This document shows positions 57,141 to 62,967 of a stretch of 64,000 nt of DNA, one piece after another. Position numbers and translations under genes: made by a program. This DNA comes from Pascua guehoae. Its lineage: Eukaryota; Basidiomycota; Tremellomycetes; Trichosporonales; Trichosporonaceae. The stretch covers positions 2,931,165 to 2,995,164 of the forward strand of contig BCJX01000002.1 of the NCBI GenBank assembly GCA_001600415.1. The letters are read 5' to 3'. The first letter of the stretch is position 1. Every line of letters starts with the position of its first letter. Under the pieces are notes generated by a model. That model was not told the DNA's origin. It ran no database searches and worked only from the letters and a program-made list of their open reading frames with translations.

Positions 57141-59575
57141 ATGTCGAAACAGTCCTCATCAAAGGTGCTATCATCGAACTCGAAGGCACGAATCGACAAA
57201 CTGCTTGGTTCTGGGCCCTCCAGGCTGTGCAACCCCTCTGCACCTGCGAACGGTCGACCGATCTACATTATCAGCGCAGAGATCCTCCACTCCTTGGTGG
57301 TGTCGAGCCACTATGTCCAATATGGCCCTACTGCCAAAGACCCACGTTTCGCATTCTCATGGGTCGACAACCGAATCTATAACGATCAAAGTCACGAGAT
57401 CGGTGGGGACGACGACGACGATAATGTAGATTTTCGCCGGGATCACGCTCTTGATGTTTTAAGGTCGGCGTCGACGGTGGGCCGGGGAAGGCCCAAGGAG
57501 AAAAATACTGGACCCCGTGGTGGAGTCAGTGGACTTGTCCCACGACATTTTTTTTGAAAGGGCTTACATGGTAAGTTTAGTTGAAATACGCAAGGGGCAG
57601 CTCTACTGACACTGGGTAGGACCTCGAGTATATCGACTTCACAAAGTTGGACGACCAGGAAAAGGCATACGCGCGTGCCAAGGGCTACAGCAACTTGGCC
57701 AAGGGTTTACCTACGGCCGGCCAGCAGACGGTCTTATTGCTGGACAACAACGACCGCGACAACGACGTCCATCGATACATTCAGCAATACTTTGCAAACC
57801 AATTCACTGTCACATGCCGACCCGCCCCAGGCCAAATGTGGCCCGACCGTCATCGACTGGAGTCCTGGACTTCAACGTCGTACGTTGGCGATAAGCTCAA
57901 GAATGACAAGTGGGAGGAGACAATTGCCTCCAGCACTAGTCAACCGAAAGAAGACTTGATCATTGCGGTCGACACGAACGCTTTCTTTGGACGCCGGCAC
58001 CCCAAAACAGGTGCTGCACGGGAGCAGTACCTCGACCAATACATGCAGTACAACAAAACCAAAAAGCGAGAGCAGCAAGGCAAGCAGAACGGTCTGGTGA
58101 CACTGCGGGTTCCCGAGGCGGCGATCAACGAGATTGCTGCGCGGTTCCGGCAATCTGGCCTGCCTCAACCGTCTCACGACTGGCAAAATGTCGAACTTGC
58201 TGCGCCAAACTTCCGCCGTCCCCCAAACGTCCCTCAGCAATGGTACACCACACCCTATGGCGACCAAAGCATCCGACTCACGCTGTACGGCCCTTCGCGA
58301 CCGGAGAAGCAAATCCTCCTCGTTACAGGCGACAACGGCATGACGACCGCCGCGTGGCACTATGACGAGCCGGTCCTCCAGGTCAACGAGAATGAGGACG
58401 ACGTCCGACGCTGGAACCAACTCCGCACCGAGGACGAAATGGCAAAGCAGTTTCCCAAGATGGCGACTGCTCTCGAGGGGTGGAAGGGCCACAAGAAGCA
58501 CGAGTTCAAAACCGCCAAGACACAGCAGGAGACCAAGCTGTCCACTCAGCCGGGTGCTCTTGACTACGCCAAAATGGCTGCGGCCGCAGCTGCTGGTCCG
58601 ACTCGTCCCCAGCCTGGCTCGTCGAAACAAGGAGCAACAGCCCATCCAGCAGCACACCCTCCCACCCAGGCAAAGTCTTCGGGTCAACACCCTGCGGCAG
58701 CCGATGCCTGGCCGCAGTTGGGTTCGTCGACACCCGCCCAAGCCACGCGTCCAGCTCCCCACCAGGGGTCCGGTCCTAGGGCTCCGTCCAACACGCAGGC
58801 TCGTTTACCTGCCAGGCCAACTCCTCAACCCGGTAATAGCTACGCGAACGCCGGCCGACCCGGGCCATCGTCGCAATCACGGGGGATGCCCCAGTCTAAA
58901 CCCCGCGGGATGCCCCACCAGGCTCACCCCCAGTCGCGTGGCATGCCTGGTTCTGGTGGTCCTCAGTCACGCGGCATGCCTGGTCCCCAATCACGCGGAA
59001 TGCCTGGTCCCCAATCACGAGGCATGTACCCGCCCAATGCCCAACCTCGCGGTCTGTACGACGAACCCCCCTCTCACCACGACGCCCCAGGGTGCACAAT
59101 CTGGTCGTGGCTGTGTTGCGGTCTTCCGCTCCTCTACTCGGCTCTCCGCAACTCGACATGCTGTTCGGCTCTCACCTGCTCGACATGCTGTGCCCGGTCT
59201 TCAGACTCGGGGTGCTGCTGTTTCCGCCCCTGGTGCGGCCTTAGCGGCTGTGGCAGCTGCTGTCTTCCCACATGCTGTGTCCCCACGTGCTGTCGCTCCG
59301 ACAAGGCGATGGAAATGCACCTCGACCAAGGGCAGGGGCGGTATCCGACCCCCCCGCCGGCGTACAGCTACGACCACGCGGGCGCGCCCATGATGAATCC
59401 CGCGGCACAGACACCGCCACAGTACGCGTATCCGAACCAGTATCCCCATGGCGGTGCGGGGTACGCACAGCAGCCGGGCTACCCGGGCTACCAGAATGCT
59501 GGAGCGTGGGGAGGAGGAGGATATGGGAGTGGGCACCAGCAAGGGTATGCCCAAGATGCGCGGATGTACATGTAA
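57141..59575 (+). CDS. PIN-like nuclease domain protein with RGM repeats and a cysteine-rich module
   Basis: Exon 1 starts at 57141 (MSKQSSSKVLSS); the last exon is 57620-59575, entered from a GTAAGT donor at 57571. The PIN-like core carries IIAVDTNAFFG (Asp codon 57971), VPEAAINEIAARF and ILLVTGDNGMTTAAW (Asp codon 58331), matching the acidic positions of PIN ribonucleases. After a Pro/Gln/Ala-rich linker come six RGM repeats (QSRGMPGPQ type, about 58870-59040), a module with 19 Cys in about 70 residues (59090-59300: paired CC, some in hydrophobic context), and a Pro/Gly/Tyr/Gln-rich tail ending RMYM. The Cys module could be palmitoylated, membrane-inserted or metal-binding. The join between the exons is uncertain: a T8 run at 57548-57555 puts exon 1 into a stop, unless an intron lies within about 57403-57530. 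RNase activity is inferred. Confidence 0.75.
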
Positions 59576-60352
59576 AAAGCCTGGGAGTCTCATTGTGAGG
59601 CTCTGTACAAATGTAAGTTGTACGTCTTCCTGCTTGTGCTAGAACTGCCCTGTATTTTAGGGAATGTACTCCTTATTATGCACGCGACTTCGCAATATCT
59701 CTTTATCAATGCGTATCCCACAATGCCTTTTCTTTCTTAGGGGTGCCTTCTAGTTCTAGAGCACAAGGATTGCTCTCAGCCTCCCAATGGTCCGAGGAGC
59801 CAACACGACAGCAGTTCTTCGCTGCCACTGTGATGTTCGCTCTACTGCCACAGGGTAGTATCAGCCTGTTCGGCAACCGAACCTTAGAGCGTCGTCATCG
59901 CCGTGTGCATCACCCTCGGCCGTGGACATGACGTAGAACGTTGTATATTCGGCGATGGTATATGTAAGGGAGTGTTGGGACTTGTAGATACCCTCGGCGA
60001 ATGTATAACGTAGCCTTCTACTATAGTACATCGCCACCTTGCTCCACAACATCGGTTCGAACATCTACTCTTGTGCCATCCCATGTCCACCACGACACTG
60101 AGGGAGGCCGCAGGACCGTATTATTGATCTCAATGTCCGCCCGCAAGGCAGGTAGCCCGGTGAAGGGCGGCAAATATCGCGGTCATTATAGGTCATCACA
60201 AGGCTAGAGCAAACTCACGATGGCACCGAAATTCGCCGACTCGCTGAAACACAATGTTGACAATCTACGTTGTCATAAAGAGCAGGCAATGTCTCTGTCA
60301 AATCTCGTCTTCATTCTCTACATCGACGCAAAACCCTACTGATCCTAACACC
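59576..60352. other. intergenic region upstream of the RNA-repair gene
   Basis: About 780 bp, AT-richer than the surroundings. It should hold the terminator of the PIN-domain gene and the promoter of the repair gene. No further gene was seen. Confidence 0.5.
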
Positions 60353-62967
60353 ATGCATCTAGACCCCTCTGGCCTCCACATCGGCGAGTACAAGGGCTGC
60401 ATCGCTCTGCTCGGCCCGGCGCTCGTCTCGGCATGCGCACAAGCCTCGGCCTCCGGCACCATCGCCACCGACGACTCGCCCGATACACTACACGTTACGC
60501 TTGTAACAGCTAGGGAACGCAAGACGCACCTGCGCGACGTCCCAGTGCCCGACGCCTGCACGATCCCAGTTTCCAACGTCTATGTCGTGGGCAACGACGT
60601 GGAGGTACGCCGGCACGGCCGGAGTGTGAGGTTTCTGGTTGTCGTGTGGAACCACGCCGACGTGTGGCGGCGCAAACACGGGCTCGGGAAGAAGGAGTAC
60701 CACATTACGCTGAGCGAAGACAATGACCACGAGATCCCCAAGGGGCTCGGGGCGTTGGTGAATGCGGGGCAGGGGAGAGCGTTGCTCAAGCAGCTGGCTG
60801 GGCTGGGCGAGACGGCCCTCGACCACGCGGCTGTGGCGGCTGATAATGTGATATTGGTGAGTGGGGGATGGAGTGTGGGGCAGGCGCGCTGGGGCTAACA
60901 CGTCTTTAGAAACAACAGATAGCGGAGCGCATGGTGGTAGACTACCCGGACTCGTACAAGGCGTGGGCTCGTCTCGCCGAGGCGACGCTCACACCCAAGA
61001 TATCGGCACTTGCATATGCACGAGCAGCAGCACTCAACCCGGCCCTGCTGCCGCGTGCAGTCTCACAGCTGAAAAAGATGCGCGACACGGTGTCCTACGG
61101 TCCGGTCGGCGCGGAACTTGTACCACTACCGCCACAACTATGGGAACGCGCCCTCCGCCCGTGGCCGGCCGAGCTCGGTGCTGCCCTCTCGCACATGCTC
61201 TGGACAGCTCCGACCACCTCGCGCGCGGGCCAGCTGAACGGGTGGTACCACCTGCCCCGCTTCTTCTCGTGGCTGTACCCCTCGCGCGTCGCAGGCATGT
61301 CCACTCCGCGACGCGCGGCCGACATTGACGTGCTCGCACGCATGGGCTTTACGCATGTCCTCAGCCTGACCGAAGAGGAGCCCCTGGACGAGGACTGGTT
61401 CCGCTTTGTGGTTCAGCACGTCTATGTCCCGGTGCCCAACTACCACCCGCCGACGATTGCAGAGATGGATGCAATCTGGGCACAGGTTGCGGCTGGGGGT
61501 GTGTGGCTCGTCCACTGCGGTGGCGGGGTCGGGCGTGCAGGGACCGTCCTGGCCTGTCTCATTGCGATGATGGGTACGGGTGACGACGGACCGGGCGACG
61601 TGCCGGTCGCGTCGACGCCGCGGCTTGATGCCCGTTCCGCCATCTCGCTCCTGCGCCACGCGCGGCCCCGATCGCTCGAGACCGAGCACCAGGAGCGCTT
61701 TGTCGCGGAGTGGGTGTCGCACCGGTGGAAAGTCGCCCATGCAGCCGACACGACAACCCCCGAGCCCGTCACCTTACTCCAAGTGGACCACCCGTCCCAC
61801 GACCCCATCACGGCCCTCTTCCTCATTGGCCGCCCGGGCTCTGGCAAGTCGTGGCTCGCATCGGCACTGGCCAAGCGGCGGGGACCAAAGAAGACGCTCA
61901 TCATCTCGCAAGACGAATCTGGCTCACGTGCATTCTGCGAGATGCAGCTGGGCCGCATCTCCAACCTGCCCCCAGACACACTCGTCATCCTGGACCGATG
62001 CAACCCGTCCCGCGCGGACCGCAAGCGCTGGCTCGACCTGATCGGAGGCGCGAGGCGGTGCGTCGCAGTCTACTTTGACTTCCCGGCCACACTGTGCAAG
62101 CAGCGCCTGGACGCGCGCCTCGACCACCCCACCCTCCGTGCGGGGCGGGGCGCGAATGCCCTCGCGCAGATGGACAGGGAGATGGAGGCGCCGGACGCGG
62201 CCGATGGCTGGGAGTCAATCTTTACCATTACGAGCATTGACGCCGCGCGCCAGGCGGTGCGGCGCATCACGCCCGACCCGCCCCTGCTCAAGTTTCCCCG
62301 CACCCCGCACCTCGTCAACCTCGGCGCGAGTACGGACGACGACATTGTGCTTGCCGACTTTGACGAGCTGCGCGGCAACCTCACGATCGAGGAGAAGATT
62401 GACGGCGCCAACATGGGCTTTTCGCTCGACTATGACGGCGTCGTCCGCGTCCAGAACCGCAGCCACTGGGTCAGCTCGGCCGACCACGCCCAGTTCAAGC
62501 CCCTCGACAAGTGGGTACGCGCGCACGACACCGCCCTCCGGCGCATCCTCGGCTCGGATCCGCAGTACCCCGAGCGCTTTATACTGTATGGCGAGTGGGC
62601 GGTCGCGCGCCACTCGGTCCACTACACGTCCCTCCCGGGGCCCTTCCTCGCCTTTGACCTGTACGACCGCGTCGCGGCCCGCTTCCTCTCCCGCTCGGCC
62701 CTCACGCGCGTACTCGCCGGCTCCGGTATCCCCCAGGTGCCCCTCATTACCAAGACGAGGTACGTCACCCGCGCCGAAGTGCTCGACATGGTGCAGGAGA
62801 CGTCGGCGTTCACAGACGGCAAGAGGGAAGGCGTCTACGTCCGCACAGAAGACGATAGCCGGCGGTACACCATCTCGAGGGGAAAGGTCGTCCGCGGTGA
62901 CTTTATCGCGGGCAACGAGCATTGGGCACGTGGACCGTTGGTGTTGAATGGATTTGCGAGAGAGTAG
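60353..62967 (+). CDS. four-domain RNA end-healing and sealing enzyme (2H-DSP-kinase-Rnl2 ligase)
   Basis: Exons 60353-60856 and 60910-62967 (53-bp intron with a GCTAAC branch-like site) give 853 residues. N-terminal 2H phosphoesterase: LHVTLVT (H47, T49) and YHITLSED (H117, T119), the two H-x-T motifs of cyclic phosphodiesterases. A helical segment follows at about 176-235. A DUSP23-like dual-specificity phosphatase follows with HVLSLTEEEPLDEDWF, PNYHPPT and HCGGGVGRAGT (C371, R377). Then a P-loop kinase: GRPGSGKS (475-482) and VILDRCNPSRADRKRWL. Then an Rnl2-type RNA ligase: EEKIDGAN (nucleotidyl Lys664), ILYGEWAV, FLAFDLYD, EGVYVRTE and ISRGKVVRGDF, i.e. motifs I, III, IIIa, IV and V. Together these would open 2',3'-cyclic phosphate, remove phosphate, add 5'-phosphate and ligate. 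It is not the order of fungal tRNA ligase Trl1 (ligase-kinase-CPD). The phosphatase general-acid Asp of DUSP23 appears as Asn345. Substrate unknown. Confidence 0.93.

Follow-up and report, generated by a model that had tools for sequence, protein, structure and literature searches.

A predicted single-chain RNA repair enzyme of the Swiss Army Knife family in the basidiomycete Pascua guehoae

The locus at positions 60353 to 62967 of a 64,000-nucleotide stretch of the genome of the tremellomycete fungus Pascua guehoae (contig BCJX01000002.1 of assembly GCA_001600415.1; the whole stretch is termed the window) raises the question of what is made by a gene in which motifs of a 2H phosphoesterase, a cysteine phosphatase, a P-loop kinase and an RNA ligase follow each other in one reading frame. 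The original prediction, made from the letters of the window, had placed one gene with a single 853-residue product here, and this was borne out: two exons are separated by a GT-AG intron and homologues span the junction. The features of the locus are as follows.

60353-60856, plus strand: exon 1 with 168 codons (residues 1-168), encoding the 2H phosphoesterase domain and the beginning of the helical linker
60470-60721, plus strand: 2H-SAK domain (PF22547), residues 40-123; 41.4 bits on the whole chain and 45.4 bits on exon 1, cut-off 27
60491-60499 and 60701-60709, plus strand: the two H-x-T motifs of 2H-SAK, residues 47-49 and 117-119, placed by motif position
60722-61254, plus strand: helical, repeat-like linker with the intron inside, residues 124-283; a row of helices with high confidence in AlphaFold models
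60857-60909, plus strand: intron of 53 nt, GT-AG, starting with GTGAGT and ending with CTTTAG
60910-62967, plus strand: exon 2, residues 169-853 and the stop codon
61255-61704, plus strand: PTP-SAK domain (PF22784), DUSP23-like phosphatase, residues 284-433; 164.2 bits, cut-off 27
61438-61440, 61513-61545 and 61678-61680, plus strand: phosphatase sites N345, the C371-X5-R377 loop and E425, assigned by conservation
61819-62193, plus strand: AAA_33 domain (PF13671), P-loop kinase, residues 472-596; 42.9 bits, with matching fungal and bacterial kinase structures
61828-61851, plus strand: Walker A motif of the kinase domain, residues 475-482
62380-62859, plus strand: RNA_ligase domain (PF09414), residues 659-818; 109.6 bits
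62395-62397, plus strand: predicted catalytic Lys664; motif V RGK, at residues 825-827, lies after the RNA_ligase domain

Joining of the exons yields the 853-residue product, in which all motifs named in the original prediction were found at their claimed positions, i.e., H-x-T at 47 and 117, HCGGGVGRAGT at 370, GRPGSGKS at 475 and KIDG with K664, followed by the further ligase motifs YGEW at 728, FDLYD at 750, EGVYVR at 808 and RGK at 825. Exon 2 is an open frame of 685 codons and it exceeds all frames in 500 order-2 Markov sequences simulated from the plus strand of the 3.2-kb region, for which the longest frame had a mean of 266 and a maximum of 562, and the E-values of the four Pfam domains on the chain range from 2e-10 to 3e-48. 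Frame and motifs are thus not due to chance, and an origin of the motifs by chance is ruled out. Within the intron the sequence CTAAC ends 10 nt before the 3' end. Homologues support the splice: the nine rows of homologues inspected at the junction continue across it, and a Vanrija orthologue is 69% identical over 100% of the query. This also rules out two separate genes. One of the nine, P0012, carries a long insertion at the junction, which was taken as a retained intron. An in-frame ATG at 60254 (60254-60352, plus strand) precedes the called start by 33 codons and could lengthen the N terminus by 33 residues; the Vanrija orthologue starts at the position called for the 853-residue product.

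The Pfam search confirmed the four enzyme parts in one chain, in the order 2H-SAK, PTP-SAK, AAA_33 and RNA_ligase, each above its curated cut-off. The related phosphatase model Tc-R-P also scored above cut-off across the PTP-SAK stretch (37.5 bits), and residues 124-283 contain no Pfam domain above cut-off. Pfam describes 2H-SAK and PTP-SAK as domains of the 'Swiss Army Knife' protein, and as two of the models carry this name the four-domain layout is that of a known family. The 853-residue protein is a fungal member of this Swiss Army Knife (SAK) family, with which it shares the four domains and their order, and no difference in layout was seen. An undescribed layout is ruled out by the Pfam names together with homologues of the same order. 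The family probably has its source in work of Burroughs and Aravind from 2016. Taken alone, the PTP-SAK model is unspecific: it scored above cut-off in six of 14 control genomes, and the eight named control genomes with a match are all prokaryotes. Names given to deposited SAK members include 'ATP dependent DNA ligase' and 'Dual specificity protein phosphatase 23'. NCBIfam gave no match for exon 1 and none near cut-off for exon 2, and PADLOC gave a single weak P-loop match (E 0.034). Among the PHROGs, two phage RNA ligase families were matched (2.5e-16 and 2.3e-13) together with weaker ones, and a family labelled thymidylate synthase matches the phosphatase stretch (3.5e-8). The name occurs in the text available from PMC7765460, where a phage kinase is annotated 'HAD domain in Swiss Army Knife RNA repair proteins', and in that available from PMC11090510, where it stands solely in a reference title on Cdc48. 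Searches of the open-licence literature turned up neither biochemical nor genetic work on a SAK member.

Structure predictions agree with the profile matches for the part encoded by exon 2. The models have a mean pLDDT of 92 (exon 2) and 91 (Vanrija orthologue), and the exon 2 model shows fold matches to DUSP23, to PNK-type kinases and to RNA ligases. A sequence search of the PDB at E≤1 returned nothing for exon 1, and no PDB relative for the ligase piece alone (one antibody chain, E 0.76). With the full-length model as query, no 2H protein appeared among the top 50 rows of each structure list, which is no argument against the 2H fold, as phosphatase, kinase and ligase matches fill these lists. 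Literature searches for the paper on the solved fungal kinases gave nothing relevant. Active-site conservation was counted in the 137 of 167 homologues that are 780-950 residues long, excluding 30 shorter or longer ones. C371, R377, E425, Q429, K481, D503, R571, K664, D666, R685 and E730 are kept in all 137, E808, R825 and K827 in 136 and D751 in 135. The 2H residues are kept less strictly (H47 in 127, T49 in 126, H117 in 130 and T119 in 128 of the 137).

The phosphatase differs from its solved relatives at the loop acid. The predicted fold and the HC-X5-R loop are those of DUSP23 (VHZ), and Glu134 and Gln138 of DUSP23 have their equivalents in E425 and Q429. The loop general acid Asp65 of DUSP23 aligns with N345, and because this acid is absent the domain is termed DUSP23-like. 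Across the SAK set the position is Asn in 135 of 137 homologues and Asp in two (P0014 and P0074), and it is Asp in all four solved relatives aligned (DUSP23, 25xa, ShufPTP and Tk-PTP). Another candidate acid, E324, is kept in 136 of 137. According to the available portions of two studies, Glu134 is the primary general acid in DUSP23, with Asp65 as the lesser one and with a role for Gln138, and Tk-PTP uses both Asp63 and Glu132 (PMC5965843; PMC9038691). In the former, the exchange D63N in Tk-PTP is given with an approximately tenfold lower activity (PMC5965843). Excerpts of a further paper term such residues catalytic backups and name Asp as the preferred base of ShufPTP (PMC12848742). As N345 takes the place of Asp65 and both E425 and Q429 are invariant, the domain can be read as a glutamate-dependent phosphatase, and judged from the alignment it looks like a natural Asp-to-Asn mutant that relies on glutamate. 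C371 would then act as nucleophile, R377 would bind the phosphate and E425, instead of the loop Asp of most PTPs, would be the main general acid. The lower activity of Tk-PTP D63N, the preference of ShufPTP for Asp and the use of pyrophosphates by some PTPs without an acid speak against this reading. No statement of the acid swap for SAK proteins was found in the open-licence literature searched, by searches not targeted to the acid swap alone.

Taken together, the protein is probably a single-chain RNA heal-and-seal enzyme of the SAK family for scarless end repair, and in this respect the original interpretation is partly supported. Metal-independent RNases leave a 5'-OH. They also leave a 2',3'-cyclic phosphate, and the opening of cyclic phosphates by 2H enzymes, with a 2'-phosphate left, is described as widespread (PMC9503650, available in part). 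In the SAK protein, the 2H domain would open the 2',3'-cyclic phosphate to a monophosphate, which the DUSP23-like domain would strip to give a 2',3'-diol, and the P-loop domain would phosphorylate the 5'-OH on the other fragment. The Rnl2-like domain would adenylate this 5'-phosphate via K664 and seal a normal 3'-5' bond, and the product would be joined without a 2'-phosphate scar, making Tpt1 unnecessary. Rnl2-type ligases require a 3'-OH, as established for T4 Rnl2, and therefore the phosphate would have to be removed first; a phosphatase placed between the 2H and the kinase domains fits this order. The inserted phosphatase would thereby make RNA ends produced by metal-independent RNases usable for an Rnl2-type ligase. 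We infer these reactions, their sequence and a role in the repair of RNase-cut RNA in conflict or stress.

Both 2H and DUSP domains act on other substrates too, which counts against the RNA-repair reading, and an alternative can be put forward for each of them. The kinase and ligase might seal RNA while the DUSP23-like domain serves a 5' phosphate, a pyrophosphate, a protein phosphate or regulation, which we regard as unlikely. Among proteins of known structure it comes closest to DUSP23 and to protein phosphatases of archaea that were assayed on phosphotyrosine or small substrates (PMC5965843, in the part available), and the usual loop acid is absent; some PTPs without any acid act on pyrophosphate substrates (PMC9038691, likewise in part), which would suit a substrate other than an RNA monophosphate. 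The conservation of C371, R377, E425 and Q429 in 137 of 137 homologues stands against this. In addition, the ligase needs the 3'-OH, as set out above, and by Pfam the chain contains no second phosphatase domain that could provide it. A further alternative, quite unlikely in our view, bears on the 2H domain. None of the other three catalytic domains is as weakly conserved: its identity to five homologues is 29-56%, compared with 52-81% for the ligase. Its histidines also vary in some rows, H47 being missing or changed in ten and H117 in seven of the 137. These exceptions include four gaps and may in part be gene-model errors; as far as the alignment goes, they speak against the 2H domain being strictly required. 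Set against this alternative are the two intact H-x-T motifs in the P. guehoae protein and the conservation of both histidines in most homologues.

Another explanation for the heal-and-seal domains is that the SAK protein stands in for Trl1 as the ligase for tRNA splicing or HAC1-type mRNA splicing in this fungus, as it has end-healing and ligase domains of the same kinds. Trl1 is a single chain with the order ligase, kinase and CPD, a ligase of the RNA_lig_T4_1 family and no phosphatase. It thus resembles the SAK protein in joining a ligase, a P-loop kinase and a cyclic-phosphate-opening domain in one chain, whereas in the SAK protein the ligase comes last and a phosphatase is present. After sealing by Trl1 the junction carries a 2'-phosphate, and Tpt1 later takes it off (PMC6333775, available in part). 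In the original prediction the ligase family had been set apart from that of Trl1, rightly so, as RNA_ligase was matched and no RNA_lig_T4_1 match was found among Pfam families at E≤1. The genome (33.6 Mb, 28 contigs) was searched with profiles, whose match counts are lower bounds. At least one match each of PTP-SAK and RNA_ligase was obtained, located at the gene of the 853-residue protein. The evidence for a Trl1-type enzyme comes from profiles for the ligase and CPD domains: at least four ligase matches, scoring up to 115 bits, and one CPD match at 54.6 bits lie together within 2.7 kb on contig C3; at least three Tpt1 matches (best 44.6 bits) lie on contig C8. Among the 14 control genomes, RNA_ligase was matched in five, the Tpt1 family in three, PTP-SAK in eight (six over cut-off) and the two Trl1 families in none. 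The presence of Trl1-type domains and Tpt1 makes a replacement of Trl1 very improbable, and identity of the protein with Trl1 is ruled out by the missing RNA_lig_T4_1 match, the different domain order and the Trl1-type domains on contig C3. As the genome holds both, tRNA splicing very likely relies on its standard enzymes, with the SAK protein present in addition. The neighbouring genes examined offer no functional clue. The upstream gene (57142-59575, plus strand, coding exon from 57620) encodes a tail rich in cysteine and in glycine/tyrosine, and its coding exon has no Pfam match at E≤0.01. We take its product to read like a PIN-type nuclease (DLIIAVDTNAFF, LLVTGDNGMT).

Among other RNA repair systems, the bacterial Pnkp1-Rnl-Hen1 system, which includes the methyltransferase Hen1, also has end-healing and ligase parts. 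It consists of three proteins that form a heterohexamer and repairs ribotoxin-cut RNA (according to the available part of PMC4411300), whereas the SAK protein is a single polypeptide that includes a cysteine phosphatase as well as a 2H domain. The SAK ligase shares the nucleotidyltransferase fold and ligase motifs with T4 RNA ligase 2 and the Naegleria RNA ligase, and it has motifs III to V as well as the lysine of motif I. The C-terminal domain of T4 Rnl2 is missing, the chain ending 26 residues past the RGK motif, and because of this absence the domain is termed Rnl2-like; the Rnl2-type ligase originally predicted is thus retained in its nucleotidyltransferase domain, motif I lysine and motifs III-V and given up for the C-terminal domain. 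Prokaryotic relatives of the ligase are mostly small, with frames of 195-403 residues (median 245) among the best 80 of at least 537.

The distribution of the four-part chain was surveyed by a homologue search, in which the nearly 8,000 candidates with the most words in common with the query were scored and 638 proteins were found at E≤1e-3, 120 of them listed. All four Pfam domains are present in 92 of the 120 listed homologues; among the remaining 28, all but two have fewer than 750 residues. The nearest among the listed deposited orthologues are Vanrija proteins, aligned over the whole length. The fungal carriers named represent the classes Tremellomycetes, Exobasidiomycetes, Agaricomycetes, Dothideomycetes and Leotiomycetes, and the moss Ceratodon purpureus is also among the named carriers. 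Coprinopsis cinerea, a laboratory fungus, has the orthologue P0065. A search from the moss protein, again with nearly 8,000 candidates scored, listed 120 of 419 proteins and added the bdelloid rotifer Adineta ricciae, whose full-length SAK protein P0142 is 39% identical to the 853-residue protein. The survey of domain order proposed earlier thus shows that the same four-part order recurs in fungi and also in a moss and a bdelloid rotifer. According to the available part of PMC11258130, the genes that rotifers, A. ricciae included, induce most strongly when attacked by a fungus include those for RNA ligases. In two agaricomycete gene models, P0091 and P0156, the SAK chain also has PF00294, a sugar kinase domain of the PfkB type; the two are possibly fused gene models.

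In a search of predicted viral structures (BFVD) the first match was the Terrestrivirus protein A0A3G4ZM97 (859 residues, E 6e-55, 921 columns) and the second the Bodo saltans virus protein A0A2H4UUE0 (649 residues, E 4e-30). Both belong to giant viruses of the Klosneuvirinae and match the SAK model over most of the model's length by predicted fold, with low TM-scores of 0.17-0.27, as can happen with multidomain chains whose domains are placed differently. In prokaryotes, the best 80 of at least 537 relatives (589 stretches) align with the ligase, extending at most into the segment directly ahead of it, and none of these 80 has a phosphatase, kinase or 2H profile match in the flanking DNA (up to 6 kb per side, often less). 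In viral contigs a kinase match lies beside the ligase at 20 of 80 loci (80 of 101 kept), in separate frames. The scan with the phosphatase piece yielded no relatives in three stretches and that with the kinase piece 46 loci, 45 with the kinase only and one with a kinase and a weak ligase in separate frames, so that the phosphatase and kinase scans of viral contigs, with patterns built from eukaryotic sequences that giant-virus genes could escape, returned no SAK layout. The two giant-virus proteins stem from the structure search and did not come up in these scans. On one viral contig a frame of 769 residues (L171:2153-4459) matches the SAK-like kinase with 107 bits towards the C terminus; a separate frame upstream of it matches the ligase weakly. 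As the prokaryotic and viral-contig loci match without the four-part layout, the fusion looks eukaryotic and giant-viral within the limits of these searches.

A tree of 28 chosen rows, i.e., 27 named homologues and the 853-residue protein, joins the latter to Vanrija (100/100), with Acaromyces and Ceraceosorus, both exobasidiomycetes, next (99/96). The Agaricomycetes group with Pseudogymnoascus and are found, with the moss, across a 99/98 branch from the group of the P. guehoae protein. In tests of clades chosen after inspection of the tree, a single Basidiomycota clade was rejected (AU p 1.2e-87) and a single Tremellomycetes clade was not rejected (p 0.115). Lateral transfer or an old duplication with losses can explain this tree, which fits both; lateral spread of parts for RNA repair is the subject of a sentence by Burroughs and Aravind (2016) cited in PMC11258130. 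The patchy spread, the giant-virus relatives and the ligase induction in rotifers suggest a defence against RNA-cutting attack.

The SAK family and its layout are known, and the interest of the P. guehoae protein lies in a complete predicted pathway in one chain and in the apparent acid swap. The new detail is the near-universal Asp-to-Asn exchange at the phosphatase loop acid combined with an invariant Q-loop glutamate in the SAK set (n=137). Tentatively, and somewhat short of being probable, the SAK phosphatase may represent a distinct class of RNA-end phosphatase that has lost the loop acid and uses the Q-loop glutamate for 2'- or 3'-phosphate ends, the whole protein being a scarless, Tpt1-independent, ready-made defence against RNA attack that moved among fungal phyla, mosses, rotifers and giant viruses. 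If the heal-and-seal prediction holds, the placement of a cysteine phosphatase between the end-opening and the kinase domains would be explained, and a one-protein tool to join RNA fragments with cyclic-phosphate ends would be at hand. Many fungi would then hold a second, self-contained RNA repair besides Trl1 that leaves no 2'-phosphate scar, and a single repair module would connect fungi, bdelloid rotifers and giant viruses.
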